From Mucilaginibacter phyllosphaerae (GTDB lineage: Bacteria > Bacteroidota > Bacteroidia > Sphingobacteriales > Sphingobacteriaceae), in NCBI RefSeq assembly GCF_004378255.1, contig NZ_SNQG01000007.1:186001-250000 (forward strand): a DNA stretch of 64,000 nucleotides, in the 5' to 3' direction. The first letter of the stretch is position 1. Every line of letters starts with the position of its first letter. A program made the position numbers and the translations under genes. The notes under the pieces were generated by a model. The model was not told the origin of the DNA and did no database searches. It was given only the letters and a program-made list of their open reading frames with translations. Below are positions 26,971-49,654 of this stretch, piece after piece.

Positions 26971-28308
26971 TTAGAGTGATAAGCGGCCCTGGTAATAATC
27001 TAATATTTTGTTGTAGATAAAGCAATCGTAACGGGCGTTGATAAGGTTTAGGTTTGCCCTGTCCATATAGTTTTTAGCCAATACAAAGTCTACAGAAGTT
27101 AAAACACCGGCATTGAAACGGATCTCGGCAATCCTGAAAGATTCGGCATAAGCTTTAACCTGGTCTTGTAAGGCAGCGTAACGTTCAAGCGCATTGCTCA
27201 TGTTTAGATAAGCCTGTTCTACATTCTGGCGCAGCTGGATCCGGGTATTTTCTTCAACATATTTATAGTTCTGAAGATCTATTTTGGCTAAGGTTACCTT
27301 ATTGCGGTTTTGGAAATAGTTTAAGATCGGGATCCTGACGGTTACACCAAACTGGTTGTAAAAGTTGTTTTTAAACTGATCCCAGTAAGGTATGGTTGCA
27401 CTATTTACCTGTGCTGCGCTTGAATAATTGGTATTTAAACCGCCAAACAGCGATAGCGTTGGCGATAAAGCACCCTTAGCTGCCGATACGCCTTTTTCTG
27501 CGCTTTGGCGGCGTAGTGTTGCTGCCTTAACATAAGCCAGTTGTTGCAGTGCTGTTTGATAGATCTGGTCTGACGTACCGTTTTGCGGTAAGATCTCGTT
27601 CCCCACAATTTTTTCAAACCTTATTTCCGGCCGGTAAGGGATATTCAATATCTGTAATAAGTTCAGTTTAGATGTTTGCAGCGTAGCTTTTGCATTCACA
27701 TAACTTACCTGGTTATCGGCATAAATGCCTTTAAGATCTGTCAGGTCATTTGGTTGTTTATTGGCACCTTGTTTTTCCAGTATGTTCAGCCTGTCTACCT
27801 GTTGTTTTGAAACCTGCAGCTGGTTTAACACCTGCGACAGTGATTCGGTATTATTAAGCACCTGTAAATAAGCCGTAATGGTGTTAATGGTTACCAGGTC
27901 CTTTGCTTGCTGCAGGTCCATCTCGCCCGCTTTATAGGCCAGGGATGTTTGTTTTATCCTGTTCAGGTTTTGCAGGCCGCTAAATAAGGTAAGATCGGCG
28001 CTGGCACTGTAGCTGGCAAATTTAGTTGAAGCGTTAACGTAGGTATAATCTACCTGGTTAAGGCTACGCCCGTTGCTGATACCGTGGTCAATCTGCCCGT
28101 TGATAGAGGGCAGCAGGTTTTCTTTTGCCTGGTTTTTATCAACCTTAGCAGTTTGTAACAGCAACTCGCTTTTTCTTACGTCGAGATTATTTTTTACAGC
28201 TATATCAATACATTGCTGCAGGTTAAGTACGCTATCAACAGCCTGGCTGTGTGCCAAAACCGGCGCAAGGGTTATTAAGCTAAAAAGTATAAATTTAAAG
28301 TATCGCAT
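26971..28308 (-). CDS. TolC-family outer-membrane efflux protein
   Basis: 445 residues. Signal peptide MRYFKFILFSLITLAPVLAHSQA, then two OEP repeats: LNLQQCIDIAVKNNLDVRKSELLLQTAKVDKNQAKENLLPSINGQ (about 27-70) and, in the second half, VTLAKIDLQNYKYVEENTRIQLRQNVEQAYLNMSNALERYAALQDQVKAYAESFRIAEIRFNAG. Long coiled-coil helices are the expected periplasmic tunnel. Its start lies 13 bases after the ATPase stop, so the two are one operon and belong with the seven permeases upstream. It would form the outer-membrane exit if the array is an exporter. Confidence 0.94.
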   Translation of the reverse strand: MRYFKFILFSLITLAPVLAHSQAVDSVLNLQQCIDIAVKNNLDVRKSELLLQTAKVDKNQAKENLLPSINGQIDHGISNGRSLNQVDYTYVNASTKFASYSASADLTLFSGLQNLNRIKQTSLAYKAGEMDLQQAKDLVTINTITAYLQVLNNTESLSQVLNQLQVSKQQVDRLNILEKQGANKQPNDLTDLKGIYADNQVSYVNAKATLQTSKLNLLQILNIPYRPEIRFEKIVGNEILPQNGTSDQIYQTALQQLAYVKAATLRRQSAEKGVSAAKGALSPTLSLFGGLNTNYSSAAQVNSATIPYWDQFKNNFYNQFGVTVRIPILNYFQNRNKVTLAKIDLQNYKYVEENTRIQLRQNVEQAYLNMSNALERYAALQDQVKAYAESFRIAEIRFNAGVLTSVDFVLAKNYMDRANLNLINARYDCFIYNKILDYYQGRLSL

Positions 28309-28321
28309 TTTGTGTTATTGT

Positions 28322-28999
28322 TCAGAATTTCCTCGAAGATTCTACCCTTCCATCCAACAGGTTAATAATCCGCGAACCATACTCCGCGTTTTTTTCAGAG
28401 TGCGTTACCTGGATGATGGTAACACCGTCTTCTTTGTTCAGCTTACGAAAAAGCTCCATGATCTCCTCCCCTTGTTTAGAATTAAGGTTACCTGTAGGTT
28501 CATCAGCCAGTAATAGTTTTGGTTTGGCAATAAGCGCACGGGCTATTCCTACCAGTTGCTGCTGGCCGCCCGATAGCTGCGCCGGAAATAAATCCTTTTT
28601 ACCTACGATCTGGAAACGATCCAGCATATCGGCTACCATCGCCTTACGCTCAGAACCCTTTACATCCTGGTAGATGAGTGGTGTTTCGATGTTTTCGTAA
28701 ACGGTAAGTTCGTCTATCAAATGGTAAGCCTGAAAAACAAAACCGATATACTGCTTGTACAAAGCGGCACGTTGTTTTTCTTTAAGCTGATGAACGGGCT
28801 GATTAACAAAATAGTGGTAACCGTCGTTCGGTTCATCAAGCATCCCGATGATATTTAGTAATGTTGATTTGCCCGACCCGGACGGCCCCATGATCGAAAC
28901 AAATTCACCCTCGTCTACATCGAGGCTAATATCGTTTACAACAAAGTTTTTGTTCCCGCCTACCTGGTAATACTTAGAAATATGCTGAAGTGATAACAT
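28322..28999 (-). CDS. ABC transporter ATP-binding protein, MacB/LolD type
   Basis: 225 residues. Complete ATPase: Walker A GPSGSGKST (about 39-47), Q-loop FQAYHLID, ABC signature LSGGQQQLVGIARAL (about 142-156), Walker B LLLADEPTGNLN, H-loop VTHSEKN. Single cassette of the lipoprotein/MacB family; LNLV-type ending. It is the only ATPase in the 20-kb permease region and would have to energise all seven permeases unless others come from elsewhere. The upstream 292 bases carry a palindrome and the GTTCGGT block repeated upstream of the first permease. Confidence 0.95.
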   Translation of the reverse strand: MLSLQHISKYYQVGGNKNFVVNDISLDVDEGEFVSIMGPSGSGKSTLLNIIGMLDEPNDGYHYFVNQPVHQLKEKQRAALYKQYIGFVFQAYHLIDELTVYENIETPLIYQDVKGSERKAMVADMLDRFQIVGKKDLFPAQLSGGQQQLVGIARALIAKPKLLLADEPTGNLNSKQGEEIMELFRKLNKEDGVTIIQVTHSEKNAEYGSRIINLLDGRVESSRKF

Positions 29000-29291
29000 G
29001 TTTAATTGTTAGGTTAATGAATTACTGTTTATTTTTTTGCAATTTCTTAAACTGATTTTGGTATTGAAGTATGAATAATATACCAAACTTATAAGTTACT
29101 ACGTATCAGATATTTATAATTAATTTAAAAGTAAAAACTGTACGCTTATGTACAGCGTGCGTTCGGTAATGATACAGTTGTTAGAGAGATGGAGATTGGT
29201 GATTAGCGATAAGAGATCAGAAAGGCATATATACAATTAGAGGTCAGAATATTCGATTCTAACCTCTAATCACCAATCTCTGATGCTGATA
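29000..29291. other. Gap before the ATPase gene: regulatory sites plus a long inverted repeat
   Basis: 292 bases without a gene. It holds the two-part operator (29138-29178) and, on the permease side, an inverted repeat: GAGATTGGTGATTAG (near 29190) against CTAATCACCAATCTC (near 29268), enclosing ATTAGAGGTCAGAAT and ATTCTAACCTCTAAT. The inverted repeat directly follows the last permease stop and may terminate the permease transcript. Confidence 0.6.
29138..29178 (-). promoter_or_regulatory. Two-part operator upstream of ATPase-TolC
   Basis: CTGTAC-N6-GTACAG palindrome (29138-29155) and the 18-nt block GTTCGGTAATGATACAGT (29161-29178), 5 nt apart. The block recurs with one mismatch at 46651-46668 upstream of the first permease, next to a GCGTAC-N5-GTACGC palindrome 16 nt away; the change of 11 nt between the two arrangements is about one helical turn. 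Confidence 0.65.
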
Positions 29292-31712
29292 CTATTCGCT
29301 TCTTAAACTTTTTACCGGGTTGGCTAAAGCCGCCTTTACAGATTGCAGGCTAATGGTAAAAAAGGAGATAAGCACGGCTGCAGCGCCGGCTATACCAAAT
29401 AGCCACCATTGTATATGGGTTCGGTAAGCATAATTTTGCAGCCATTTATCCATAAAATACCAGGCAACTGGTGTGGCTATTATAAAAGCTATCATAACCA
29501 GCCACAAATAATCTTTTGATATCAGTGCAACAATATCGCTTACATTAGCCCCCAGTACCTTGCGGATGCCAATTTCTTTTACGCGTTGTTCTGCCGTAAA
29601 ACTTACCAGGCCAAATAAACCCAGGCAGGCCAAAAAAACTATCAGCAGGCTAAAGCAAGTAAACAATTGCTGTAATTTAGCTTCTGCTTTATATTGCTTA
29701 TCTACCAGTTCGTTTACCCAATTATATTCAAATGGTTTATTATCCGGATAGTATTGCTTGTACAACCTGTTTAAACCTGTCAATACAGCCCTTTCGGTGC
29801 CGGGGATAACCCTGATCAGCATAGCGCCGTATCGTGGGTTAGACAACGCTTGCAGCACCGTAGGCTTAATTTTGTTATGGAGCGATTCGCTGTAGAAATC
29901 TTTTACTATACCTACGGTAGTACCTTCAAACTTAACATTGCTTTGATTTACCTTCAGGTTAAGCAGTTTAGCGGTGTAAGCCGTTACCAGCATGGGTTGG
30001 TTTTGTATCAAAGCCTTTGTTTTAGCTGTGGCCCCTCCTCCCATTAATGTGTCCTGATCTATAGCATCAGTACTAACGTTAGGGTTAAAGATGCGGCCCG
30101 AATTTACTTTAAGTTTTAATACACCCGGCAAATCGGCATCGGCCTGTATAAAGTGCAAGGTCAGTTTTTCATTACCCACCTTTACGGTTCTCGACATATT
30201 GCCCGATCCGGAAGATGGGTACCAATTAGTTATACTTGCCCCTGCAACGCCCGGCATCCGCATCAACTCCGTTTTAAATGACTGCCCGCTTTTGCCCCAA
30301 TCGCTAAAATCAATATTAACCAAATTGTTTTTATCAAACCCCAGATCTTTATGGCTCATGAAATTAAGCTGATTATGCACTACCAGCGTTATTATAATAA
30401 TAGTTACAGATATCGCAAACTGGCCAACTACTAAAGCTTTTTTCAAAAAATTAAGCCCCACGTCTGATGCTATTTTATCCCGCAAAATAACCGCGGGTTT
30501 TGGGCGTGATAGATACCAGGCCGGATAAAGCCCCGTTGCTATACTGATGAGCAATACCCCAATTATTGTTACCAGTAAAAAAACAGAGCTATATAAATTA
30601 ACAACTAACTTATGATCCAGATAGGTTTCAACAGGTTTTAATAAAAAGGGATAAAGTATGATAGCCAGCGAAAAAGATATTGCAAAAAACAGTACCGACT
30701 CTGAAAGGAAACGTATAATTAACTGGCTGTTACCGGCACCTAAAACCTTGCGCACGCCTGTTTCTTTGGCGCGGTTAAATATCCGGGATATTGTTAAATT
30801 AATAAAATTGATACAGGCAATCAGCAATAGTAAGGCAGCAACACCGGCAAATATGTAAACGTTGCGCATGCTGCCATGTACATCTTGCACAGCCGCAAAA
30901 TCCGATTTTAAATACACATCTTTTATAGGTTGGAACGTAAACAGATAATCTACTTTCCTTCCGTTTAATTGTTGTTTATACCAATTATTTACCTTTTGCG
31001 TAAAAGCCTTAACATCTGTACCGGGTTTAAGTAAAACATACTGCGACTGAAAGGTATAGCTCTCACCTGTTATCGGTACTTTGTTATCAATTGCCCTGTA
31101 TTCAGATAGCGCCATCACATCTGCCCGCAAATGGGTGTTCTGTGGCAAATTATCTACAACGCCTGTTATCAAATATTTTTGTGGTTCGCCAAAATCTGGT
31201 AGCGTAGTAACTATCGTACCAATTACATCTTTGCCTTTAAAGTATTGCTGCTGCGTTTTTTTTGTAATTATCAGGTTGGTATATCCCTTTACAAATCTAC
31301 GTGGATTGCCTTGTACTATCTTAAAATCAAGTATATTCCAAACCGTAGCTTCGGCACGTAACATATTAAAACTTACAGCATCTTTACTTTCATCAAAACG
31401 CAAGCGGTTTTTAACTACATCCATCCGGCAGTAATTTTGCACCTCGGGAAGGTCTTTTTTTAGTGAAGGCCCAAGTCCCGAGAAAGCTGCGGGCATCAAT
31501 TCTTCACCCTTAACTTCCTTGTATGCAGATAAAATACGATAAATATTATCAGCCTTAGCCCATTGCTTATCGTAGGATAATTCATCAATTACCACAGTGG
31601 CTACAATAAGGCAGGCGGTTAGCCCCACACTTAGCCCAATAATATTTATTAATGAGTATGCTTTGTGTTTTAACAAGCTACGCCAGGCAATTTTAAGGTT
31701 GGTTTTAAGCAT
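29292..31712 (-). CDS. MacB/FtsX-type ABC permease 7 (last of the array)
   Basis: 806 residues. N-terminal MLKTNLKIAWRSLLKHKAYSLINIIGLSVGLTACLIV (first membrane helix ~18-40), periplasmic MacB_PCD domain, first FtsX domain with FINLTISRIFNRAKETGVRKVLGAGNSQLI (about 300-330), TM5 about 425, second periplasmic domain, last FtsX domain (about 680-806) with LACLGLFGLVSFTAEQRVKEIGIRKVLGA and ending NPVKSLRSE. The usual YP-x(3)-LS-x-F-x-P loop reads LYPAWYLSRPKPAVILRD, the most divergent of the seven. Adjacent to the ATPase gene on its 3' side but separated by the 292-base gap. Confidence 0.94.
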   Translation of the reverse strand: MLKTNLKIAWRSLLKHKAYSLINIIGLSVGLTACLIVATVVIDELSYDKQWAKADNIYRILSAYKEVKGEELMPAAFSGLGPSLKKDLPEVQNYCRMDVVKNRLRFDESKDAVSFNMLRAEATVWNILDFKIVQGNPRRFVKGYTNLIITKKTQQQYFKGKDVIGTIVTTLPDFGEPQKYLITGVVDNLPQNTHLRADVMALSEYRAIDNKVPITGESYTFQSQYVLLKPGTDVKAFTQKVNNWYKQQLNGRKVDYLFTFQPIKDVYLKSDFAAVQDVHGSMRNVYIFAGVAALLLLIACINFINLTISRIFNRAKETGVRKVLGAGNSQLIIRFLSESVLFFAISFSLAIILYPFLLKPVETYLDHKLVVNLYSSVFLLVTIIGVLLISIATGLYPAWYLSRPKPAVILRDKIASDVGLNFLKKALVVGQFAISVTIIIITLVVHNQLNFMSHKDLGFDKNNLVNIDFSDWGKSGQSFKTELMRMPGVAGASITNWYPSSGSGNMSRTVKVGNEKLTLHFIQADADLPGVLKLKVNSGRIFNPNVSTDAIDQDTLMGGGATAKTKALIQNQPMLVTAYTAKLLNLKVNQSNVKFEGTTVGIVKDFYSESLHNKIKPTVLQALSNPRYGAMLIRVIPGTERAVLTGLNRLYKQYYPDNKPFEYNWVNELVDKQYKAEAKLQQLFTCFSLLIVFLACLGLFGLVSFTAEQRVKEIGIRKVLGANVSDIVALISKDYLWLVMIAFIIATPVAWYFMDKWLQNYAYRTHIQWWLFGIAGAAAVLISFFTISLQSVKAALANPVKSLRSE

Positions 31713-31766
31713 GATTTATTAACTCTAAATTCTGATAACTGAATCTTAAATATGATGTAATTGCCG

Positions 31767-34172
31767 TTATTCGCTGCGCAAGCTTTTAACCGGGTTGGAT
31801 AGCGCCGCCTTAATAGACTGGTAACCAACGGTTAAAAATGCGATCAGCGCGGCCATACCGCCGGCAAGCACAAAAACCCACCATTGTATGCTTACGCGGA
31901 ATGCAAAATCCTGCAGCCATTTATTCATGGCAAACCAGGCCAACGGGGATGATATCACAATGGCTATCAGCACCAGCTTAATAAAATCAAAGGATATGAG
32001 GCCTGCAATGCTTGCCACGCCCGCACCCAGTACCTTGCGGATCCCTATTTCTTTGATACGCTGGCGGGTAGAGAACACTGCCAAACCAAATAAGCCCAGG
32101 CAAGATATCAATATAGTTACTACGGTAAATGCAGTAAGTATGCCCCCCGTACGCTGGTCGGTTTTATACATGGCATCAAACTCCTGGTCAAGAAAATGGT
32201 ATTCGAAGGGCGAATTAGGGTAAAATTTATGCCATTTAGAGGCGATAGCGGCTATGGTATTAGCTGTATTTTTACCCGATGTTTTAACCAGCAGCTTGCC
32301 AAACCAATCATATTCCGGAAACATCACTATAGGTGTGATTTCTTCGTGCAGGGATGCAAAGTTAAAATCCTTTGCCACGGCCTTAATAGTTCCCATACGG
32401 CCGTTTAAGCCTATTTTTTTGCCAATAGCCTGCTCTGGCTTCCACCCCATTCCCTTTACGGCGGCCTCGTTCAGGATGAAGCTGTAGCGCCTTTTGTCAG
32501 CGCTGGTATCCATCACCTGCTGCTCGTCGCCAAGGTCCAGGTCGTTGCCGGCTATCAATTTGATGCCCAGCGTTTTGGTAAAGCTTTTCTCCACAGGGAT
32601 GGCCGTTACCGAAAGGTTAAAATCGGCATTTTTACCTTCGGCGGTATTAATGGAGTAACCACCGCCCACATTAACCGGCGAATCGTAGCTTGCCGTAGAC
32701 CCTAAAACGCCTGTTTGCTGCCCTATTTCGCCCTTAAATGACTCTATTTGATTGTATCCCATACCACCCAGATCCAACACCAAAACCTGATCCCGGTTGA
32801 TACCTGTATTTAAACTTTGGATGTAACGCAACTGGTTACCGGCAATGATGGTACTGATAATAAAGAATACCGATACCACAAACTGAAACACCACCAACGA
32901 TTTTCTTAACATATTACCGCCCGCCTGCATGGATGACCCACCCTTTAGGGTTACAATCGGTTTAAAGGCCGACAGGTATAACGACGGATAAGTACCGGCT
33001 AACAGCGTAACCACAACAAACAGGGTAACCAATGCCAAAATCAGCCATTCGGGGTTCCAGGTTTGCAGGGAGAGCTGCTGCCCCGTAAAGTTGCTGAATA
33101 CCGGTAACAATGCCGATAACAACAATACCCCCGCTATTAACGAAAACAAGGTAATTATCCCCGCCTCTGCAATAAATTGCACAAATAACTGGCCGCGCAT
33201 AGCCCCCATTACTTTACGTACGCCAATCTCTTTGGCACGTTCTGCCGAGCGCGCCGTAACCAGGTTTAAGAAATTTACGCAGGCCAGCACCAACAATACG
33301 ATAGCTACAAAGCCTAAAATATAAACGTACTTGATATTACCCGACGGCTCTAAACCCTTACCTGCGGTACTGTACAAATGCACACGGGTAAGCGGCTCTA
33401 AACCAAACCACATTTTACCGCCCGATGCAGGCCTGTCTTTATTGATATAGTCGGTCATTTGTTTGGCAACCGCTTCCCTGTTTGCGCCAGGTTTTAAAAG
33501 GATGTAAGAATAATCGTTTGATGAACTCCAGGCCAGATTCAATGATCTGGGCATCATAGCGTAGCTGCCCATCATATCAAACTTTATCTGCGAATATTCG
33601 GGCACGTCCTCAATCACGCCGGTAACGATCATACTGTTCTTCTGGTCTACCTTTAAGATCTTACCCATGGCATCCTCATCACCAAAGTATTTTTCAGCCG
33701 TTGATGCTGTAAGTACGATAGAGGTTGAATTAGCCAACGCCGTTGCCGGGTTACCGGAGAGAAACTTGAAGGTAAAGATCTTGAAAAAAGATGCATCTGC
33801 TACCAGCATCTTTTTCTCTTTAAACAATTTATCGCCAAACTGCACAACGGCAGCACGCATGTTAGAGTAGTTTACAACCCTTACGCCATCTTCAATATCA
33901 GCCAGTTGCTGCTTAAAAACAGGCACGGGGGCAGTAGGCGTTAAAGCGGTGGTATTTACCTCTTTATCGTCGGCAGATTTGTAGCTGAACGTTAAACGGC
34001 TGATCCTGCCGGCATTGGTATTAAACCTGTCATACCGCAATTCGTTAGTAAGGTAAGTTGCCAGCAGCAAAAAGCTGCATATTCCTACCGCAAGCCCGGC
34101 CATGCTGATGAATGATGTAGTTTTGTTTTGAACAAGGTTGCGCCACGCCGTTTTTAAATAGTTCCTGATCAT
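31767..34172 (-). CDS. MacB/FtsX-type ABC permease 6
   Basis: 801 residues. Opens MIRNYLKTAWRNLVQNKTTSFISMAGLAVGICSFLLLATYL (TM1). First FtsX domain with RSAERAKEIGVRKVMGAMRGQLFVQFIAE, loop TYPSLYLSAFKPIVTLKG, second FtsX with LISCLGLFGLAVFSTRQRIKEIGIRKVLGAGVASIAGLISFDFIKL and the C-terminal NPVKSLRSE. The last 120 residues include WVFVLAGGMAALIAFLTVGYQSIKAAL. 54 bases separate it from permease 7 downstream. Substrate is unknown; by family it either exports a peptide/lipoprotein-like compound or works as a mechanotransmission machine. Confidence 0.94.
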   Translation of the reverse strand: MIRNYLKTAWRNLVQNKTTSFISMAGLAVGICSFLLLATYLTNELRYDRFNTNAGRISRLTFSYKSADDKEVNTTALTPTAPVPVFKQQLADIEDGVRVVNYSNMRAAVVQFGDKLFKEKKMLVADASFFKIFTFKFLSGNPATALANSTSIVLTASTAEKYFGDEDAMGKILKVDQKNSMIVTGVIEDVPEYSQIKFDMMGSYAMMPRSLNLAWSSSNDYSYILLKPGANREAVAKQMTDYINKDRPASGGKMWFGLEPLTRVHLYSTAGKGLEPSGNIKYVYILGFVAIVLLVLACVNFLNLVTARSAERAKEIGVRKVMGAMRGQLFVQFIAEAGIITLFSLIAGVLLLSALLPVFSNFTGQQLSLQTWNPEWLILALVTLFVVVTLLAGTYPSLYLSAFKPIVTLKGGSSMQAGGNMLRKSLVVFQFVVSVFFIISTIIAGNQLRYIQSLNTGINRDQVLVLDLGGMGYNQIESFKGEIGQQTGVLGSTASYDSPVNVGGGYSINTAEGKNADFNLSVTAIPVEKSFTKTLGIKLIAGNDLDLGDEQQVMDTSADKRRYSFILNEAAVKGMGWKPEQAIGKKIGLNGRMGTIKAVAKDFNFASLHEEITPIVMFPEYDWFGKLLVKTSGKNTANTIAAIASKWHKFYPNSPFEYHFLDQEFDAMYKTDQRTGGILTAFTVVTILISCLGLFGLAVFSTRQRIKEIGIRKVLGAGVASIAGLISFDFIKLVLIAIVISSPLAWFAMNKWLQDFAFRVSIQWWVFVLAGGMAALIAFLTVGYQSIKAALSNPVKSLRSE

Positions 34173-34210
34173 GCTTTGTAGTTTATGAGTATTTTGTTTT
34201 TATGCCTTTA

Positions 34211-36664
34211 TTATTCTGAACGTAAACTTTTTACAGGGTTTGCCAGCGCGGCCTTTAATGCCTGCGAACAAATGGTTATCAGCCCAATAAGGATGGCAAT
34301 GCCCCCTGTTAAAGCAAATATCGTCCAGTCTATTTCCCTACGGTAAGAAAATCCCTGCAGCCATTTATTCATCAGCCACCAGGCGATGGGCGATGCTACA
34401 ACGATAGAGGCCACAATAAGCTTTAAAAAATCTATCGATAATAAAGATACGATGGTTTTTACACTCGCCCCCAACACTTTGCGCACGCCTATTTCTTTAG
34501 TGCGCTGCTCGGCACTAAAGGCAGCCAAACCAAACAGTCCCAGGCAGGATATCACTATGGCTACAACTGTAAAGTAGCTTACAATGGCTGCAAGGCGCGT
34601 ATCTGCCTTGTAGTTTTTATTAAAGTCCTCGTCCAGGAAACTATAATCGAACGGATCGCTGGTATCATACTTTTTCCAGCTGGTTTCAATGGTTTTTAGC
34701 ACCGCGGCCATGTTGCCCGGTTTGGCGTGTATCACCATGTAATTAAAGCCCGATGTGTTCAAAAAGAAACCGTAAGGGGTTACCGGCAAATGCAGGTCTT
34801 CGTAATGAAAATCTTTCACCACCCCAATAATGGTAAAGGTGGAGGTATTGTCCTGATACTTATTGTACAGCTTTTTGTTGATGGCATTCTGCGCGGTGCC
34901 AAAGCCATATTCCTGCACGGCTTTTTCGTTGATGATGATATTATTGTTGGTATCTGAATGAAACTCGGGGCTAAACAAGCGCCCTGCTACCGGGCGGATA
35001 TTTAAGGTTTGCAAAAAGTTATCATCAACAAAATTCATACGCGTGCGCCGCCCTTCTGCAGAGGTTTGCCCATCCTTGTAAACCAGGTTATCGCTCGGGT
35101 TAAAAATACCCGGATAATAGGCCGAGCCGCCAATAGATGCTATGCTGCTGTTCTCCTCCAATACGGTTTTTAAAGCGGTGTAGGCTGCCTTGGCTGCGCC
35201 GGTACGCAGGGGCACGATAATTTGCTGATCTTTGGCAAAGCCCAGATCAGCCGTGCGCATGTAATTCATTTGCCTTGCAATAACCACCGATGCCACAATA
35301 AGCACTACCGAGATGATAAACTGGAATACCACCAGGCCTTTACGCACAGCCACTACGGCAAGCGAGTTGGTTAGTTTGCCTTTTAAAACTTTTACCGGGT
35401 TAAACGATGACAGATAAAATGCCGGGTAACTGCCTGCTAAAATTCCTGTAATTAAGGCCATTAGCAAAAATTCAAAAAACATCACTAAGTCCCTCGAAAA
35501 CGACAGTGTTATTGCCCTGCCGGATACCTGGTTAAACAGCGGCAGCAGTATCAGCGTTAGCGCTATGGCAAACACGAATGCAATAAGCGTCATCAAAATA
35601 GATTCGCCCAAAAATTGTTTGATCAGGGTTGATTTTTCTGCTCCCAATACTTTACGCACACCCACCTCGGACGAGCGTTTAGATGAGCGAGCGGTAGAAA
35701 GGTTCATGAAGTTGATACAGGCAATTATCAGTGTAAATACCGCTATCGAGAACAGCACATACAAATAAGTTTTGCTGGCAGGCGGGGTAACATTGCTATC
35801 TACCTCGCTGGTTAAATGTATATCGCGCAGGGCCAAAAGCGATTGCTCTTTACGGAAACCTATATTTTTAAGGTCCTTACTGGCATACTTATTTATAAAG
35901 GCCGGCAGTTTAGCTTGTAATTTGGCTGCATCCGTACCGGGCTTTAGCAGCAAGTAGGTAAAAAACAGATTATTGCTGGCAAAATCGTTTTGCTGCCTTT
36001 TAATAAAGCCTTCCATGTTACCGCCGTTAACCGACAGGAAAAAGTTGGCATCGATGTGTGATGGTGTTTTACCGGCTTCAAATACGCCGGTAACGGTGTA
36101 ATCCTGCTCGCCGTTGGTGTTGCTGTTTACATGTATCACTTTATTAAGCGCCGGCTGGCTGCCAAACAGTTTATTAGCCAGTTGCTGTGAAATTACAACC
36201 GTGCGTGGGTTTGCCAGTGCATTAACCGGGCTCCCTTCGGTAAACTGATAGGTAAAGATCTTAAAAAAAGAGTTATCCGCTAAAAAGCCCCGTTGCTCAA
36301 GAAATGATCGCCTTTCGCCCTGTGCCGGATTGTACTGCACAATGGTTTTATCTTCGGTAAACAAGCTCAGTAACCTTGCTGTCTCCACAATCTCGGGGTA
36401 CTCCCGTTTTAAGGCAGCAGCCATCGGCGCCGGCGTGTTAGGCAGTGCCATGCGCTTGCTGCCGCTTTGTATAAATGCAGTTACTACCTGGTAAATGTTT
36501 GGCGCGTTTTTATGCTGGCTATCATAGCTGGTTTCATAGTTAAGGTACAGCGCTATCAGAATGCAGCATGCTAAACCTACCGACAAACCAAATATGTTGA
36601 TGAATGAGAAGAACTTGTTCTTCATCATGTTACGCCATCCTATTTTAAAATAATTTTTTATCAT
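34211..36664 (-). CDS. MacB/FtsX-type ABC permease 5
   Basis: 817 residues, longest member. MIKNYFKIGWRNMMKNKFFSFINIFGLSVGLACCILIALYL (TM1), RSSKRSSEVGVRKVLGAEKSTLIKQFLGE in the first FtsX domain, SYPAFYLSSFNPVKVLKG loop, and ISCLGLFGLAAFSAEQRTKEIGVRKVLGA before the last helices; ends NPVKSLRSE. The first periplasmic domain carries KLFGSQPALNKVIHVNSNTNGEQDYTVTGVFE. 38 bases separate it from permease 6. The gap upstream (36665-36754) is nearly identical in part to the one before permease 2, see the repeat entry. Confidence 0.94.
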   Translation of the reverse strand: MIKNYFKIGWRNMMKNKFFSFINIFGLSVGLACCILIALYLNYETSYDSQHKNAPNIYQVVTAFIQSGSKRMALPNTPAPMAAALKREYPEIVETARLLSLFTEDKTIVQYNPAQGERRSFLEQRGFLADNSFFKIFTYQFTEGSPVNALANPRTVVISQQLANKLFGSQPALNKVIHVNSNTNGEQDYTVTGVFEAGKTPSHIDANFFLSVNGGNMEGFIKRQQNDFASNNLFFTYLLLKPGTDAAKLQAKLPAFINKYASKDLKNIGFRKEQSLLALRDIHLTSEVDSNVTPPASKTYLYVLFSIAVFTLIIACINFMNLSTARSSKRSSEVGVRKVLGAEKSTLIKQFLGESILMTLIAFVFAIALTLILLPLFNQVSGRAITLSFSRDLVMFFEFLLMALITGILAGSYPAFYLSSFNPVKVLKGKLTNSLAVVAVRKGLVVFQFIISVVLIVASVVIARQMNYMRTADLGFAKDQQIIVPLRTGAAKAAYTALKTVLEENSSIASIGGSAYYPGIFNPSDNLVYKDGQTSAEGRRTRMNFVDDNFLQTLNIRPVAGRLFSPEFHSDTNNNIIINEKAVQEYGFGTAQNAINKKLYNKYQDNTSTFTIIGVVKDFHYEDLHLPVTPYGFFLNTSGFNYMVIHAKPGNMAAVLKTIETSWKKYDTSDPFDYSFLDEDFNKNYKADTRLAAIVSYFTVVAIVISCLGLFGLAAFSAEQRTKEIGVRKVLGASVKTIVSLLSIDFLKLIVASIVVASPIAWWLMNKWLQGFSYRREIDWTIFALTGGIAILIGLITICSQALKAALANPVKSLRSE

Positions 36665-36667
36665 AAT

Positions 36668-36744
36668 TTTGAAGATGAAATTCTAAAAAGCTAAATCTTA
36701 AACTCTAAGGTAGCTCTGTCTGATCTTTAATAAACTAATGTCTG
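36668..36744. repeat. Intergenic spacer copy A, duplicated near permease 2
   Basis: Between permeases 4 and 5. The 36-nt segment starting CTAAGGTAGCTCTGTCTGAT (36704 on) matches CTAAAGTAGCTCTGTTTAAT (44054 on) at 33 of 36 positions, and shorter AAATTCTAAA-type text flanks both. Confidence 0.7.
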
Positions 36745-36754
36745 ATCCCTAAAC

Positions 36755-39124: not shown

Positions 39125-39142
39125 AATTAATTTAAAGGGTAC

Positions 39143-41527
39143 TTACTCGCTTCGTAAACTTTTAACCGGGTTGGCAATGGCAGCCCTGATAGCCTGGAAG
39201 CTGATGGTGGTAAGCGCCACAACCATGGCTAAAACGCCGGCCACTGCAAACACCCACCATTGTATATCAATTCTATAAGCAAAATCTTGCAGCCATTTAT
39301 GCATAAAATACCAGGCAATTGGCGAGGCGATCAAAAATGAGATGCCCACCAGTTTCATAAAATCTGACGAAAGCATATTTACGATACCCGGTGTAGATGC
39401 CCCTAATACCTTGCGGATGCCAATTTCGCGGGTGCGCTGATAAGTGCTGTAGGAGGCCAGGCCTAACAAACCAAGGCATGATATAGCGATGGCCAGTATG
39501 GCAAAGTTGAAGAACAGTTTACCAAAACGCTGCTCGGTGCGGTATTGCCTGTCAAAAAATTCGTCTAAAAAGTAATAGCTGTATGGCCTGTTTGGGATCA
39601 GTTCCTTCCATTTGCTTTCTATAGCTGCTAAGGTTGCCGTTAAATTTTTAGCATCCACCTTTGCCGATACCAGATTAAGGTTGTTCAATTCCACCCGCAT
39701 ACTTAGCGGTTTTATTTTTTCTTGTAAAGAGCGGAAGTGAAAATCCTTCATCACCCCTACTATTTTACCTTCGCGGCCCCATTGCTTAAAGCGTTTACCA
39801 ATTGCCTGCTGCGGCGAACTATAGCCGAATAGTTTTACCGCTTCCTCGTTCAGGATCATAGCTTGCGCCGTATCGGTGCTCATGAAATCCCGTGAAAAAG
39901 GCCTGCCTGCAACTATCTTTATTTTAAACTGGTTCAGGTAATCAAAATCAACAAAATATAGGTCGAGATTGGCTATCTGCAGATCTCCTTTGTTGTTCTC
40001 AATTTCAGAATAGGCGCCGCTGTTACCGCCACCGGGCACGCTTGATGATAAAGCGGTTGATTTAACACCGGGGATCTCTTTAATGGCCTGCTGAAAAGCC
40101 TGTTTGGCCGGGTCGCCGTTGCTATCCATTACCAGCATCTGATCTTTTGTAAATCCCAGGTCGCGGTTGCGCATAAAATCCATCTGGTTATAAACGATGA
40201 TGGTGCCTATGATGAGCGCAATAGAAATACTGAATTGTGCTACCACCAGGCTTTTGCGGAGGAAGTTCCCTTTTGTGCCCGAGGAGAACCTGCCCTTTAA
40301 CACCATCACCGGCTTAAATGAGGAAAGCACCAATGCCGGATAGATACCGGCCAATAAACCGATTAGCACAGATATGCCAAACAATATGGCAACGTATGAT
40401 ACATTTGAAAATATCCCCGGACTGATGATTTTACCTGATAACTGGTTAAACATTGGCAGAAAAACGACCGATAGTATTACGGTCACAAAAAACGCTATGA
40501 TACACAGCACCACCGATTCGCCGATGAACTGGCCGGCCAACTCGCCTTTAGCGGCGCCAACTACTTTACGGATACCCACCTCTTTAGCGCGTTCTACCGA
40601 GCGGGCCGTAGTTAAATTGATGAAGTTGATACAGGCAATAAGCAGGATAAATACAGCCACAATACTAAAAATGTAAACATTGCTGATGCTGCCAACTTCC
40701 TGCCCGCCCCGTTTGGAGTGCAGGTAAATATCTTTGAGTGGTTCCAACATCAGGGTTGCCGACATCTGGCGCTTGCGGCTTTCTTCGCCGTTACGTTTCT
40801 CTATAAAAGCCGGAAACTTTGATTGCAGTACTTTAGCGTTTACGCCAGGCTTCAACAACAAGTAAGTGGTAGCACCATAATTGCCCCATTGCTCATCAAT
40901 CCCCTTATTGAATTTTTGGGTGAGGGTAGTCATCGATAAGATCATATCTGCCTTGATCTGCGAATTTTCGGGCATGTCTTTAATGATACCGGTAACCATG
41001 GCGGGCATTGCCTCGCCGGATAACAGCACCGTTTGCCCGATGGGATTAGTGTTGCCAAAATATTTTTTAGCCGCCTTTTGGCTGAAGATAACGCTGGCCG
41101 GTGCAATTAAAGCGGTGTTGGGGTTACCCTTTAACATTTTAAAATCAAACACTTTAAAAAAAGCCGAATCAGCAAACAGGGTGTTATCTTCCTGAAATTT
41201 AACGTTGCCTTTTCTAACCAAAAAACTGCCGCCGCTAACCCGCACAAATGATTGTATCTCCGGAAAATCTAACTTAAGGTTAGGTGCGAATGCCCAGGAG
41301 GTAACATCCGTTTTAATGGTTTCCGACGGGGTTTTAATATCCGTAACCACCCTGTAGATCCTGTCGGCCTTGGTGTGGAATTTATCGTAGCTTAATTCAA
41401 AAGCCACATACATGGATATAAAAAAGCAGGCCGTAATACCTACAGATAAGCCGGTGATATTAATAAATGAAAATACCCGGTGCCTCCAAAGGTTGCGTAA
41501 GGCTATTTTAAAATGATTTTTTAACAT
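39143..41527 (-). CDS. MacB/FtsX-type ABC permease 3
   Basis: 794 residues from the ATG at 41527 (MLKNHFKIALRNLWRHRVFSFINITGLSVGITACFFISMYVAFE); a longer frame to 41584 would add 19 non-membrane residues without promoter or family support. RSVERAKEVGIRKVVGAAKGELAGQFIGE and ILLIACINFINLTTA form the first FtsX core; YPALVLSSFKPVMVLKG loop; last domain AISCLGLLGLASYSTYQRTREIGIRKVLGASTPGIVNMLSSDFMKL; ends NPVKSLRSE. 63 bases from permease 2 upstream. Confidence 0.94.
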   Translation of the reverse strand: MLKNHFKIALRNLWRHRVFSFINITGLSVGITACFFISMYVAFELSYDKFHTKADRIYRVVTDIKTPSETIKTDVTSWAFAPNLKLDFPEIQSFVRVSGGSFLVRKGNVKFQEDNTLFADSAFFKVFDFKMLKGNPNTALIAPASVIFSQKAAKKYFGNTNPIGQTVLLSGEAMPAMVTGIIKDMPENSQIKADMILSMTTLTQKFNKGIDEQWGNYGATTYLLLKPGVNAKVLQSKFPAFIEKRNGEESRKRQMSATLMLEPLKDIYLHSKRGGQEVGSISNVYIFSIVAVFILLIACINFINLTTARSVERAKEVGIRKVVGAAKGELAGQFIGESVVLCIIAFFVTVILSVVFLPMFNQLSGKIISPGIFSNVSYVAILFGISVLIGLLAGIYPALVLSSFKPVMVLKGRFSSGTKGNFLRKSLVVAQFSISIALIIGTIIVYNQMDFMRNRDLGFTKDQMLVMDSNGDPAKQAFQQAIKEIPGVKSTALSSSVPGGGNSGAYSEIENNKGDLQIANLDLYFVDFDYLNQFKIKIVAGRPFSRDFMSTDTAQAMILNEEAVKLFGYSSPQQAIGKRFKQWGREGKIVGVMKDFHFRSLQEKIKPLSMRVELNNLNLVSAKVDAKNLTATLAAIESKWKELIPNRPYSYYFLDEFFDRQYRTEQRFGKLFFNFAILAIAISCLGLLGLASYSTYQRTREIGIRKVLGASTPGIVNMLSSDFMKLVGISFLIASPIAWYFMHKWLQDFAYRIDIQWWVFAVAGVLAMVVALTTISFQAIRAAIANPVKSLRSE

Positions 41528-41590
41528 AATATGAAAGATGAAAATTCTAAATCCAATTCTGTAATAACTCTGATCTCGGGTCACTAACCC

Positions 41591-43987
41591 CTACTCGCTT
41601 CTTAAACTTTTAACCGGGTTAGCAATTGCTGCTTTAACCGATTGAAAACTGATGGTAATAAGCGCTATAAAAACAGATAACAAAGCCACAAAAACAAATG
41701 TGCCCAGGGTAATATCTATATGGAAGGCAAAATCGCGCAGCCAGCGGTTCATGGCATACCAGGCCAGCGGCCAGGCTATCATGTTTGATATGACAACCAG
41801 TTTAACAAAATGGCCGGATAACAACAGCACAATGTTTTGCACCGATGCACCCAATACCTTGCGCACACCAATTTCCTTGATCCGTTTTTCGGCAGAGAAG
41901 GATGCCAGGCCGAACAAGCCCAGGCAGGATATCAGGATAGCCAAACCAGCCAGGATCCCAACAATTTTACTCACCTGGTTATCTGCCCGGTACACTTCGG
42001 CAAAATGGTCGTCAAGAAACTCATATTCAAAGGGGTAACCGGGATTAACATCTGTCCAGGTGGTTTTTATAAAGTTGATAGCCTGTGCCGAACTGCCGGG
42101 TTTTATTTTTACAGATACCGTACGGAACCCCCACTCGCTTTGGTTAACGATAAACAAATTCTCTACCTTGTAATGCAGTGAATTAAAATTAAAGTTTTTT
42201 ACGATCCCGGTAATCACCCCAAGCGAATCATAACCAAAGCGTTGCCCCAATAAGGTTTCTATCCTGGCACCCTGATGATCTTTCAAAAGCTCCTTAGCCA
42301 TAGATTCATTCACGATGTATTCGCGCCCGTTGGCGGTTCTTTCCGTCGAAAAATTCTTACCCGCGGCCAGTTTAATGTTATAAACCGACAGGTAATCATG
42401 GTCTACAACAAGTTGTGTGGCAGCAAGCTCCCTTACGGCATCGTTATTATATTTAAAGTTTACACCCGATTGATCCAGGTGGCTGCCCAACTGATCTTGC
42501 GAAGCGGTAACACCGGCAATTAAAGTATTGCCCGATAACTGCTGTTTAAACAATTCGTATTTTTTGCCCGAAATATTGTCCAGCGGTATGGTAACCACCT
42601 GTTCGCGGGTAAAGCCGGGGTCTTTTTCCTGCATAAATTTTAGCTGCTTTACTACAAACACGGTAGCGATCATCAAAAACACAGCGCTGGTAAATTGCCC
42701 TATCACCAGCACATTACGCAGCATGCCTTTATTTTTACCGGATTCTACTGCTCCCTTTAACACCTTAACCGGCTGAAAAGACGACAGGAACAACGCCGGA
42801 TAGATGCCCGAAACAAGCCCCACCAGCACCGTACCCAACAAAATGAGGATTAAAAAGGATGGCTTGCTGAATATAGGCATACTCATATTGCGCAAGCTAA
42901 GGTTGTTTACATAAGGTAATACCAATTCTACCAATATTAAGGCAAGCACCAGGGCGAGTAACGATAGCAGGATAGTTTCGCCTAAAAACTGAAACGCCAG
43001 CTGTGGCCGGTTAGCACCGATAGATTTGCGGATGCCCACTTCTTTAGCCCTGTCTGCCGAGCGCGCGGTAGACAGGTTCATGAAGTTAACGCAGGCGATG
43101 ATCAGCACGATGAATGCGATAATGGCGAAAAGATTAGTTGACTTTTGATCGAATTTCTGGAAGTTCAAATAATCCAGCCCTATATCTGTAGCGCCCGCAT
43201 GCACATCTTTAAGCGGCAGGTAAAATAATTCGTAGTAGGAAGTATATTCTGGCTTAAGGTGTTTTTTGAGGAAGGCGGGCATCTTGGCTTCAAAAGCTTT
43301 CAGATCTGTACCCGGCGCTAATTTTAAATAGGTATTAAGCCAGTTGCCGCCCCAGCTGTCCATCCATTTTTGCTGGATACCGGGTAACGAATAAATAGCA
43401 TCAAACTGTAGCTGCGAATTTTTTGGCGCATTTTCCATTACAGCGGTCACGGTAAACTTTACAGTATCGCCGCCATAATGATTGATCACTTTACCAATAG
43501 GGTCTTCGGTGCCAAACAGCTTTTCGGCAGTTTCTTTGGTGATGGCTATACTGTTTGGTTTATTAACGGCGCTTTGGGCGTCGCCTTTTAGTGTTTTAAA
43601 GGTAAATATCTTTAAAAAATCAGGGTCAACGGCAAATACCTGTGGCACAAATACACGTTTCTCGCCATAGGTCATCTGGTATTTCTGGTCCCACTTTATG
43701 CGGGTAAAGCTTTTTACCTCGGGGTATTCTGCCTTTAACGCAGGCCCCATCGGGAACATAGATAAGCCTACCTTTTGTGAGGCGGCCATCCCCGGGAATT
43801 TTTGCACCTCGTTCAATCGTACAATATCATTACCGTGGAAACTGTCGAAACTACGTTCGTAGGTTACAAACAGCATAATTACAATACATGCCGCCATACC
43901 AATAGCTAAACCTACTATGTTTATGGCCGATGACACCTTGTTTTTCCAAAGGTTGCGCCAGGCAATTTTAAAGTAATTCTTTATCAT
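41591..43987 (-). CDS. MacB/FtsX-type ABC permease 2
   Basis: 798 residues. MIKNYFKIAWRNLWKNKVSSAINIVGLAIGMAACIVIMLFVTYE (TM1). RSADRAKEVGIRKSIGANRPQLAFQFLGE, YPALFLSSFQPVKVLKG and LISCLGLFGLASFSAEKRIKEIGVRKVLGASVQNIVLLLSGHFVKL are the FtsX landmarks; ends NPVKSLRSE. The second periplasmic region includes YLSVYNIKLAAGKNFSTERTANGREYIVNESMAKELL, the MacB_PCD repeat core. 116 bases from permease 1, spacer partly duplicated at 36.7 kb. Confidence 0.94.
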   Translation of the reverse strand: MIKNYFKIAWRNLWKNKVSSAINIVGLAIGMAACIVIMLFVTYERSFDSFHGNDIVRLNEVQKFPGMAASQKVGLSMFPMGPALKAEYPEVKSFTRIKWDQKYQMTYGEKRVFVPQVFAVDPDFLKIFTFKTLKGDAQSAVNKPNSIAITKETAEKLFGTEDPIGKVINHYGGDTVKFTVTAVMENAPKNSQLQFDAIYSLPGIQQKWMDSWGGNWLNTYLKLAPGTDLKAFEAKMPAFLKKHLKPEYTSYYELFYLPLKDVHAGATDIGLDYLNFQKFDQKSTNLFAIIAFIVLIIACVNFMNLSTARSADRAKEVGIRKSIGANRPQLAFQFLGETILLSLLALVLALILVELVLPYVNNLSLRNMSMPIFSKPSFLILILLGTVLVGLVSGIYPALFLSSFQPVKVLKGAVESGKNKGMLRNVLVIGQFTSAVFLMIATVFVVKQLKFMQEKDPGFTREQVVTIPLDNISGKKYELFKQQLSGNTLIAGVTASQDQLGSHLDQSGVNFKYNNDAVRELAATQLVVDHDYLSVYNIKLAAGKNFSTERTANGREYIVNESMAKELLKDHQGARIETLLGQRFGYDSLGVITGIVKNFNFNSLHYKVENLFIVNQSEWGFRTVSVKIKPGSSAQAINFIKTTWTDVNPGYPFEYEFLDDHFAEVYRADNQVSKIVGILAGLAILISCLGLFGLASFSAEKRIKEIGVRKVLGASVQNIVLLLSGHFVKLVVISNMIAWPLAWYAMNRWLRDFAFHIDITLGTFVFVALLSVFIALITISFQSVKAAIANPVKSLRSE

Positions 43988-43994
43988 AATGCTG

Positions 43995-44090
43995 AAGGTG
44001 AAATTCTAAACTTTAAATACTAAATTCTAAAAGCTAACTCTAAAAACTAAATCCTAAAGTAGCTCTGTTTAATCTTTAATAAACTAATGC
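43995..44090. repeat. Intergenic spacer copy B, duplicated near permease 5
   Basis: Between permeases 1 and 2; the segment beginning at 44054 matches copy A (36704 on), see that entry. Also shares the preceding AAATTCTAAA text. Confidence 0.65.
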
Positions 44091-44103
44091 GTGTTCTTTA
44101 AAG

Positions 44104-46533
44104 CTACTCGCTTCTTAAACTTTTTACCGGGTTAACCAGCGCCGCTTTGATTGCTTTGTAGCCAACCGTTAAACAGGCTATGGCCAATGATGACGCTATA
44201 GCCAGAACAAACACCCCGGCTGTTAAATTGATACGATAGGCGAAGTTTTGCAGCCAGCCCGACATGAGGTACCAGGCCGCAGGCATTGCTAACACAAATG
44301 CAATGGCTATCAGGATCATAAATTCCTTAGAGAACAGCAATACGATATTAAATACCGATGCACCCAATACTTTACGTACACCCACCTCTTTAGTGCGCTG
44401 TACTGCCATAAAAGATACCAGGCCGTATAAGCCCAGGCATGATATAAAGATGGCTATAAAGGCAAATATCTTGTAAACCAGTGCCAGCTGGTTTTCCTGC
44501 TTATAAAACTGCGCAATGTTCTCATCCAGAAAATAGCCGTTGTAAGCATATTCCGGGTAAGTGCTTTCCCAAAGTTTTTGGATGGATGCTACCGTATTGG
44601 TCAGGTTTTTTGTTTGAATCTTAACCGCCGCAACCGACTCGAACTTTTTAAGCGGTGATATAACTATCGGCTTAACAGCATCACGTAAAGAATTGGTCTT
44701 AAAATCTTCTACCACGCCTGTAATAGGCGCCCAGGTGCCCCTGGCACCCATACGCACGGCTTTGCCAATGGCATCCCCGGCTTTTTTAATGCCCAGCTTA
44801 TGTATAAAAGTTTCATTCACTACCAATTGGCGAATGGTATCGCTTGGGTCGTACCCTTTGCCGGCTGCAAACCTTAATTCAAACGTTTTAAAATAATCGG
44901 CATCGCCGTATTTAAGAAAGGCATTAAATTGCGGGTCTTTCTCAGAATGGTCGTAGTAAAAGTTTTGCCCCCAGTTGTTTTCTGATGAGGGTGCATCTGA
45001 TGCAAAACTTACCGATTTAACTTCGGGCTTTAGCAGAAGCTGTTGCTTAAACGCCTGCATTTTACTTAGGCTAAGGCTATCTGCAGAACCCGGAATGATC
45101 AATACTGCATTTTTATTAAAGCCCAGGTCGGCCTCGTTCACAAAGTTCATTTGGTTTACGGCCACTATAGTGCCTATAATAAGCAGTTGTGCAATGGCAA
45201 ACTGCGCCACCACCAGCGCCCTGCGCAGCGGTATGCCGCCGATGGATGCGGCCGTAATTTTATTTTTTAATGCCTGCACAGGTTTAAAGCCCGATACCAC
45301 CAAAGCAGGATAAATACCCGATAATAGTATCACAACAATGGTTATAACTATTAAAAACAAAACCGTGCCTGTGCTGAATAAAGCAATTTCATCCGGCACG
45401 CTGGCAATATTTTTTAGATAAGGCAAGGCAATTTTTGCTATGGCCACAGCCAGTAATACCGATACCATAATTACCAGTGTGGTTTCGCCTATTACCTGGG
45501 CAATAAGCTGTTTACGCGTGCTACCCAAAACCTTGCGGATACCTACTTCTTTAGACCTGCCTACAGATTGTGCCGTAGATAAATTAATAAAGTTGATAGA
45601 CGCCATAATGATGATGAGCACGGCTATAAATGTCAGCGTGTTCAGGGTGGCCCTGCTGGTGATATGATCGCCGACGGTATTGCCTACCCTGGTATCAAAA
45701 TGCAATTCGCTTAACGGCTGCAACAAGTGTATGCGCGATTGCTTTTGCTGGTTTAAATCGCTTTGTTTGTTTGTAAAACCTACCAGTTGTTTGGTAAAAT
45801 TATCGGGGTTTACATTTGCCGGCAATTCTGTAAAGATCTGGTGATTGCTGCTCAGGGAATGCCAGTCGTTCCTGAAACCATAGGTATTTGCATTTTGCTT
45901 TAAAGTGATGTAAGATACCATTACCCTTAAAGGAAAATCGCTGTTATCCGGGGCATTATCTACTACACCAGCCACGCGCAGGGATAGCAGGTTATCCATT
46001 TTAAGGTTTTTACCTGTGGCTTTTTTCCAATCGCCAAAGTACTTGGTGGCCGTTCTTTTATCTAAAACAACCATATTGGGTTCGGCCAAAAACTTTTTGT
46101 CGCCCTCTAACCAGGTAGAATGAAAAATATCAAAAAACTGCGGCTCTATAAAAAACACGCCAAAGCCTTCGGTAAATTTCTTATCGGCGGTACCGTTATT
46201 GCCGCTATTATCCGGCACGGTTATTTGGCTGCCATAACTTGTATTTAATGCCGCAAATTTATATTGCGGAAAATCGGTACGCAAAGCATCAATTGCCGGT
46301 ACAGATACGCCGGGATTATAAAAGATCCCTTCATCTGCAACCTGCTTTGTTATAATATGGTAGATGTTTTTGTAATTGGCATAAGAAGTGTTGAAACTGC
46401 GCTCGAATTGCAGGATAACAAATATAAGCAGGCAGGCTGCTACACCTACGCTTAAACCCGAAATATTGATAATAGAGTGTGCCTTGTGGCGTACAACATT
46501 TCTCCAGGCTATTTTAAAGTAGTTTTTTAACAT
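44104..46533 (-). CDS. MacB/FtsX-type ABC permease 1 (first of the array)
   Basis: 809 residues from the ATG at 46533 (MLKNYFKIAWRNVVRHKAHSIINISGLSVGVAACLLIFVIL, TM1); the in-frame extension to 46569 adds twelve residues that look unlike any family start. FINLSTAQSVGRSKEVGIRKVLGSTRKQLIAQVIGE, YPALVVSGFKPVQALKN, FISCLGLYGLVSFMAVQRTKEVGVRKVLGASVFNIVLLFSKEFMIL; ends NPVKSLRSE. It opens the permease transcript: the region from 46534 to 46744 has the operator at 46618-46668. A substitution pattern distinct from permeases 2-7 makes it the most divergent along with permease 7. Confidence 0.94.
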   Translation of the reverse strand: MLKNYFKIAWRNVVRHKAHSIINISGLSVGVAACLLIFVILQFERSFNTSYANYKNIYHIITKQVADEGIFYNPGVSVPAIDALRTDFPQYKFAALNTSYGSQITVPDNSGNNGTADKKFTEGFGVFFIEPQFFDIFHSTWLEGDKKFLAEPNMVVLDKRTATKYFGDWKKATGKNLKMDNLLSLRVAGVVDNAPDNSDFPLRVMVSYITLKQNANTYGFRNDWHSLSSNHQIFTELPANVNPDNFTKQLVGFTNKQSDLNQQKQSRIHLLQPLSELHFDTRVGNTVGDHITSRATLNTLTFIAVLIIIMASINFINLSTAQSVGRSKEVGIRKVLGSTRKQLIAQVIGETTLVIMVSVLLAVAIAKIALPYLKNIASVPDEIALFSTGTVLFLIVITIVVILLSGIYPALVVSGFKPVQALKNKITAASIGGIPLRRALVVAQFAIAQLLIIGTIVAVNQMNFVNEADLGFNKNAVLIIPGSADSLSLSKMQAFKQQLLLKPEVKSVSFASDAPSSENNWGQNFYYDHSEKDPQFNAFLKYGDADYFKTFELRFAAGKGYDPSDTIRQLVVNETFIHKLGIKKAGDAIGKAVRMGARGTWAPITGVVEDFKTNSLRDAVKPIVISPLKKFESVAAVKIQTKNLTNTVASIQKLWESTYPEYAYNGYFLDENIAQFYKQENQLALVYKIFAFIAIFISCLGLYGLVSFMAVQRTKEVGVRKVLGASVFNIVLLFSKEFMILIAIAFVLAMPAAWYLMSGWLQNFAYRINLTAGVFVLAIASSLAIACLTVGYKAIKAALVNPVKSLRSE

Positions 46534-46617
46534 TTGTAATGATATTTGCTTACATAGATTAAAACACATACCAAAACAACAACTAATTCATTATCAATAC
46601 TTTAATAAAATAAAAAA

Positions 46618-46668
46618 GCGTACGCTATGTACGCCTGTGTAACACCCTGTGTTCGGTTATGATACAGT
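46618..46668 (-). promoter_or_regulatory. Two-part operator upstream of the permease array
   Basis: GCGTAC-N5-GTACGC palindrome (46618-46634) and GTTCGGTTATGATACAGT (46651-46668), 16 nt apart. The second part differs at a single base from the block at 29161-29178. Located 84 nt upstream of the permease 1 start on the minus strand. Confidence 0.65.
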
Positions 46669-46699
46669 AGGTGGTAATGATGGAGGGCTGATGATCGAG

Positions 46700-47926: not shown

Positions 47927-47976
47927 CCGAAAATAATTATTGATTTAATGGATCAGTGATTTAAAAAAGCAAATCA

Positions 47977-48597: not shown

Positions 48598-48598
48598 G

Positions 48599-49588: not shown

Positions 49589-49598
49589 AACCGGGCAT

Positions 49599-49627
49599 AA
49601 AAAAAGGGTTACCATGTGGCAACCCTT
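49599..49627 (-). terminator. trp attenuator terminator
   Basis: On the minus strand: AAGGGTTGCC / ACAT loop / GGTAACCCTT (10-bp stem 49604-49613 with 49618-49627, one G.U pair), followed by seven U (49599-49605). It lies 11 bases before the trpD ATG. Its 5' arm can alternatively pair with GGCAGCC at 49655-49661. Confidence 0.9.
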
Positions 49628-49654
49628 CTGTATATTTATCAAAACAAAAAATGA

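Follow-up and report, generated by a model that had tools for sequence, protein, structure and literature searches.

A conserved, apparently co-regulated array of swappable MacB/FtsX-type permeases between two ATPase genes in Mucilaginibacter and its relatives

How can seven permease genes in a row be served when a single ATPase gene stands beside them? The question is raised by a locus of Mucilaginibacter phyllosphaerae in which seven tandem genes for MacB/FtsX-type permeases (P1-P7) are followed, on the minus strand, by one gene for an ABC ATPase (A1) and one for a TolC-family outer-membrane channel (Table 1). The window, by which we mean the whole stretch of DNA that was analysed, is a 64-kb part of contig C22 in a genome of 4.42 Mb. 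A sequence-only reading had described seven full-length permeases with their lengths, gaps and shared NPVKSLRSE ends, all of which was confirmed by the open reading frames (ORFs), Pfam and the C-termini, and the one ATPase gene and one TolC-family gene that it placed after the permeases are indeed the only ones to follow them within the window. Going from P7 to P1, the intergenic gaps in the row are 54, 38, 90, 18, 63 and 116 bases. MacB_PCD and FtsX exceeded the Pfam cut-off in all seven proteins. FtsX is found twice in each, as is MacB_PCD in all but P6 and P7, which have it once, and the seven thus belong to the Type VII (MacB/FtsX) ABC superfamily (by Pfam in 7/7, by fold for P3 only).

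Table 1. Features of the permease locus and its counterpart (window positions, except where contig C22 is named; permease lengths counted from the ATG)
Feature	Position	Strand	Length	Remarks
TolC-family outer-membrane channel	26971..28308	-		PF02321
A1, ABC ATPase	28322..28999	-	225 aa	D-loop TGNLN, LSGGQQQLVG
Two-half regulator-like site before A1-TolC	29138..29176	-		21-bp spacing; TGGYA box at 29085
P7, permease	29292..31712	-	806 aa
P6, permease	31767..34172	-	801 aa
P5, permease	34211..36664	-	817 aa
P4, permease	36755..39124	-	789 aa
P3, permease	39143..41527	-	794 aa	ORF opens at 41584; folded
P2, permease	41591..43987	-	798 aa
P1, fused MacB/FtsX-type permease	44104..46533	-	809 aa	ORF opens at 46569
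Two-half regulator-like site before P1	46628..46666	-		TGGYA box at 46573
Q1-Q5, five permeases	C22:120641-135210	-		MacB_PCD family search

All seven reading frames are uninterrupted and full length, which rules out the idea that P1-P7 are dead genes, and the two or more pseudogenes that had been named as possible counter-evidence are not to be found among them. Recent tandem duplication was also rejected, since pairwise identity within the row is 30-41% and, in a tree of 218 permeases, each of the seven clusters first with genes of relatives (support at least 0.97 except for P6, where it is 0.71 but reaches 0.999 at the next node up). One of the orphan permeases of this genome, C19, belongs to the P4 clade (support 0.993). 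The tail NPVKSLRSE closes all seven proteins, and the five permeases of a second array (Q1-Q5) end in NPVKSLRSE, NPVNSLRSE or DPVKSLRSE; a tail of this type is a family feature, not one private to P1-P7. Directly upstream of P1 lie genes that we read as trpB, trpF and trpD (window 46745-49642; the first is PF00291 by Pfam), and the TolC gene is followed by one for a 200-aa outer-membrane beta-barrel protein, OMP_b-brl_2 (window 26255-26857). An ORF of about 200 aa, matched by position and size only, also comes after TolC in many of the named loci.

The claim that the row has a single ATPase and no membrane-fusion protein (MFP) stood inside the window but not genome-wide. A family search gave 36 MacB_PCD matches in the genome, and the array Q1-Q5 has upstream of it a second ATPase gene, A2, and a gene for a HlyD-type MFP, which is the kind of protein that the sequence-only reading had proposed to look for. 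The genes for A1 and A2 are about 80 kb from each other, and their products are 55% identical. A system without a fusion protein is thus rejected, given the MFP found about 80 kb away and in relatives' loci, and the appearance of one motor and no fusion protein is a product of the window edge and of the split locus. Among the NCBIfam models, only the general RND_mfp reached its cut-off, and it did so with the MFP. Divergent from MFP-A2-Q1-Q5 are the genes for an NtrC-class regulator and a kinase, the regulator having PF00158 (E 8.6e-66), that is, a sigma-54 activator domain, together with PF00072 and HTH_8. The genome has 17 permeases of the array type: the two arrays account for 12, and the other 5 are orphans that no ATPase gene adjoins. 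A DUF4097 (Toastrack) protein is encoded between Q4 and Q5 (C22:123373-124401; L031), and unmatched genes of about 341-367 aa recur inside the arrays of relatives, the Pfam scan having covered this genome's DUF4097 only.

A1 carries the Walker A, Q-loop, signature, Walker B and H-loop motifs. Its D-loop N is found in 101 of 103 rows and the L after LSGGQQQ in 103 of 103, at positions where A2 has D and R in 24 of 24, some genomes being present twice in these rows. A1 had seemed extremely conserved, but its mean identity of 90% is only modestly above the 86% of a dedicated ATPase used as control (14 genomes).

We then turn to the locus in relatives. An A1 ortholog (83-96% identity) is present in 21 other genomes of the genus, or 22 of 25 counting this one, and the named loci nearest in A1 identity (96%) are from Mucilaginibacter. 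Twenty of the 22 loci were mapped, leaving out G006 and G012, which have short contigs; genes were called as the longest non-overlapping ORFs and named by their best match to the proteins of this genome. The order MFP-A2-[permeases]-A1-TolC runs as one stretch, with few other genes at most, in 11 of the 20 mapped genomes (G019, G002, G011, G016, G001, G003, G023, G008, G013, G017 and G022), and these joined loci contain 4 to 21 full-length permeases, so that there is nothing special about seven. A gene block like that after Q5 and before P1 here (recR-like, trp-like; the likeness was judged by length and order, not by sequence) interrupts the arrays of G004 and G021. The A1-TolC end is separate from A2 in G010, G014 and G020, and the loci of G005, G015 and G018 were followed from one end only. 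G130, a 21st genome of the genus, has both ATPase genes on one contig, in separate arrays. The arrays of G021 and G013 each include one permease split into two ORFs (352+464 aa and 414+377 aa, one in each), which suggests gene death.

Outside the genus, A2-[permeases]-A1 forms one stretch in five other genera of three families (G126, G100, G062, G113 and G159; 2, 4, 7, 8 and 9 permeases), and in three of them A1 is followed by TolC. Separate contigs carry A1 and A2 in G025, G038 and G169; G079, G081 and G098 have groups of MFP, A2 and permeases without A1; and G074 gave no clear order. From the locus order across relatives we infer that the joined form MFP-A2-[permeases]-A1-TolC is probably ancestral and that the split in this genome is derived. 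TolC directly follows A1 in 79 of 80 named loci, the remaining one ending at a contig edge. Of the 78 loci with a gene upstream of A1, 64 have a permease in that position; 9 of the remaining 14 show no permease in the stretch fetched upstream of A1. Across both data sets, A1-TolC was seen as a two-gene unit, with no upstream permease in the fetched stretch, in G014, G020, L102, L104, L111, L146, L148-L151 and L156, as if the motor-channel pair served permeases elsewhere.

The two halves of the system have the same kind of upstream site. A two-half element emerged when 79 sequences from upstream of A1 were aligned (the window and 78 named loci), and relatives have it before MFP as well. In this genome the exact half-site TGTATCAWWACCGNAC occurs in five copies, before P1, A1, MFP, Q4 and Q5, with two extra copies elsewhere at one mismatch (reversed control, 1 and 1), and the full site with up to three mismatches occurs three times, always at this system (reversed control, 0). 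The distance from site to TGGYA box at the five sites is 91, 91, 93, 93 and 93 bp. Among 18 genus genomes, 14 contain 23 exact full sites, 22 of which lie before MFP or A1 by position (that of G010 being assigned from A2 alone); the sole other one is G023:C14:149475-149513. No exact full site was found in G007 and G024, which have no A1/A2 orthologs, nor in G001 and G002, where the whole locus is present. An NtrC-class regulator is compatible with a layout of site and promoter box of this kind, and the regulator encoded beside MFP may act through the two-half sites. The TGGYA box is without a canonical sigma-54 -12 element, and a strict, hand-entered sigma-54 consensus with one mismatch allowed had no match at the sites.

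Sigma-70 promoters were rejected as a signal in the region, where 34 matches stood against 45.3 expected in shuffles; some minus-strand sigma-70-like matches lie between P1 and P2 and between P4 and P5. The row P1-P7 was likewise judged free of intrinsic terminators, none being found on the minus strand in the six gaps. The region as a whole has 41 terminator-like matches, against 23.5 in shuffles, and the ones ahead of P1 and A1 share bases with the regulator-like sites. Separate promoters and conditions of expression for individual permeases had been named as evidence that would count against a shared system. This applies in part, in that P1-P7 and A1-TolC have their own regulator-like sites, but these sites are of the same kind.

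We also surveyed 149 genomes of the class for permeases (E<=1e-55) and A1/A2-type ATPases (E<=1e-60), with cut-offs set after the results for genus A1/A2 orthologs and permeases were known. Permeases were found in 24 genomes, the ATPases in 25 and both in 24 (Fisher p 8e-27, kinship ignored), a co-occurrence that is partly trivial because the genes share an operon in some genomes. One genome, G093, has an A1/A2-type ATPase without a permease match. The genus genomes G007 and G024 have no such permease at E<=1e-40, and the ATPase-negative G026 and G033 have one half-length permease match each at 1e-40. Genomes with A1 proper (n=10) are richer in permeases than those with the A2 type only (n=15; p 0.00014), where the grouping was post hoc and the permease counts are lower bounds, with at most 6 permease and 19 ATPase candidates scored per genome; all ten A1-proper genomes of this sample also have an A2-type ATPase.

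The model of P3 (mean pLDDT 82.3, pTM 0.75) contains eight long membrane-type helices; large domains follow helices 1 and 5, and the predicted architecture is one of two MacB units back to back. By hydropathy there are eight segments in six of the seven permeases and seven in P3. The best solved match to the fold is YbbP (Z 24.1, 652 aligned, rmsd 10.7), followed by a P. gingivalis permease domain (Z 23.6), BceB (20.9) and MacB (19.0). The available text on YbbAP-TesA describes two ATPases, one permease, one TesA and two coupling helices (PMC12646458). If two ATPases sit in this way on one fused YbbP-type permease, each array permease should by analogy be a complete transporter alone, with two ATPase chains. 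In a structure alignment (P1-P7 together with 73 of the 177 candidates that the named loci supplied), identity within P1-P7 is 60 and 64% in the coupling loops and 84% in the tail, against 25% in the periplasmic domains. Among all 12 array permeases the loops are 60 and 65% and the periplasmic domains 26% identical. The array permeases share 58 and 61% of loop positions with the 5 orphans but 10 and 27% with the permease of a dedicated ATPase (one control permease), and the conservation of these loops is partly a general trait of the FtsX family.

We consider it reasonably probable that P1-P7 are one half of a split, co-regulated export system, made up of separate exporters that share their motors, adaptor and channel. 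Each permease, as a fused pseudo-dimer, would bind two ATPase subunits and form its own transporter, and all would draw on two ATPases (A1, A2), one adaptor (the MFP) and one TolC channel, assembled in tripartite form and working in the direction of export. The periplasmic domains differ and, because they do, the substrates presumably differ too; by likeness to DarBCD and MacAB-TolC, these may be peptides or hydrophobic toxins. The NtrC-class regulator and the kinase beside MFP would probably activate every unit by way of the shared sites. Adaptor and TolC are encoded with the permeases in relatives' loci and are split in this genome; A2 and MFP belong to the same locus in 11 of the 20 mapped genus genomes, and have the same kind of site here. 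The earlier proposal of a multi-substrate exporter with a shared motor fits this evidence, except in its premise of one motor and no MFP, given that A2 and MFP exist.

The fold of P3 admits a different function. With YbbP and BceB among its closest matches, and with extraction of hydrophobic compounds ascribed to YbbAP-TesA in the text available (PMC12646458), the permeases could be lipid extractors or flippases, or could sense envelope-targeting toxins and shed them, in the manner of YbbAP-TesA or BceAB, MFP and TolC serving only some of them. The regulator-kinase pair adjoining MFP and the 9 of 78 named loci without a permease in the stretch fetched upstream of A1 would suit such a role, which we nonetheless think unlikely, as 11 of the 20 mapped genomes of the genus have the array flanked by MFP and TolC and the best named families of adaptor and ATPases, below cut-off, are DarC and DarD. 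The two motors might instead be an obligate heterodimer of A1 and A2, one for each half of the fused permease. Consistent changes of A1 in two ABC motifs where A2 has D and R, and the presence of an A2-type ATPase in every A1-proper genome of the class sample, point that way; against it, the catalytic motifs of A1 are all present, the two coupling loops within a permease hardly differ, and A2-type ATPases stand beside permeases without A1 in G079, G081 and G098, which makes an obligate pair distinctly improbable. As for the mixed oligomers suggested by the sequence-only reading, in which permeases would pair with one another on one motor, many diverged copies do adjoin one ATPase. Such pairing is unneeded: every permease already contains two FtsX cores, two MacB-like units can be seen in the model of P3, and YbbAP-TesA is described in the text available as operating with one permease chain (PMC12646458). 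We give mixed oligomers hardly any credence.

Sharing of motors by separate exporters, the reading that we prefer, could extend further. Tentatively, we envisage a universal-motor exporter, in which a co-regulated set made up of the motors (A1 and A2 together, perhaps heterodimeric), the adaptor and the channel would drive an open-ended range of plug-in fused permeases including the orphans, although the orphans could use another ATPase. In that case the substrate range would change by gain or loss of a single gene, and the missing motor of the duplicated orphan permeases in this class would have a name; we know of no ATPase identified so far as driving such permeases, of which some genomes have dozens. 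The locus offers a testable answer, as the arrays of relatives, with 4-21 permeases, lie between two ATPases and under a single kind of regulator-like site. Should the motors be shared, deletion of two genes would silence a whole transporter family, and the substrate of each permease could be tested in one common background. One machine may thus handle many substrates.

Several known systems resemble parts of this one. Likeness to MacAB-TolC lies in the periplasmic core domain, the FtsX core, the adaptor and TolC; MacB, however, is a half-size permease fused to its ATPase, whereas the permeases here are double-size and the ATPase genes separate. A shared ATPase is also known from MsmK/MsiK, where one ATPase serves several ABC transporters, but those are sugar importers of another class. 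YbbAP-TesA of Escherichia coli is the closest solved fold over the whole permease and likewise combines a fused permease with a separate ATPase; YbbP, according to the text available, has 10 transmembrane helices and a hydrolase partner (PMC12646458), in contrast to 8 transmembrane helices, MFP and TolC here. No title or abstract opening describing such permease arrays was found in the literature covered, which was incomplete.

In an NCBIfam scan of five of the seven window permeases, the best full-length match of all five was ADOP, the duplicated orphan permeases (TIGR03434), at 237-327 bits, below the curated cut-off of 622.3, which no permease exceeded in any of the 149 class genomes. To our knowledge, ADOP genes are said to lack ATPase neighbours, unlike the array here, which in relatives stands between two ATPases; five orphans of this genome are without one. 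In the accessible text of the sources, ADOP copy numbers of 28 and 33 are given for two Dyadobacter by RAST annotation and genes of the type are called 'of unknown function' (PMC11573002), and 102 ADOP genes are reported from an acidobacterial MAG (PMC10564751).

DarBCD (NF038008, NF038010, NF038007) likewise consists of a full-length permease, an adaptor and a separate ATPase. The best family match of the adaptor is DarC and that of both ATPases DarD, while the permeases match ADOP and then DarB, all below cut-off (DarD 252 for A1 and 304 for A2 against 375; DarC 146 against 450; DarB 119-175 against 700). As far as the available text of PMC9055067 goes, DarBCD has one permease in a peptide gene cluster and is dispensable for darobactin production in E. 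coli, whereas the present system has 12 permeases, two arrays and two ATPases. Of the sets characterised so far, DarBCD comes nearest to this conserved array, in which swappable permeases are flanked by two motors and regulation appears to be shared.
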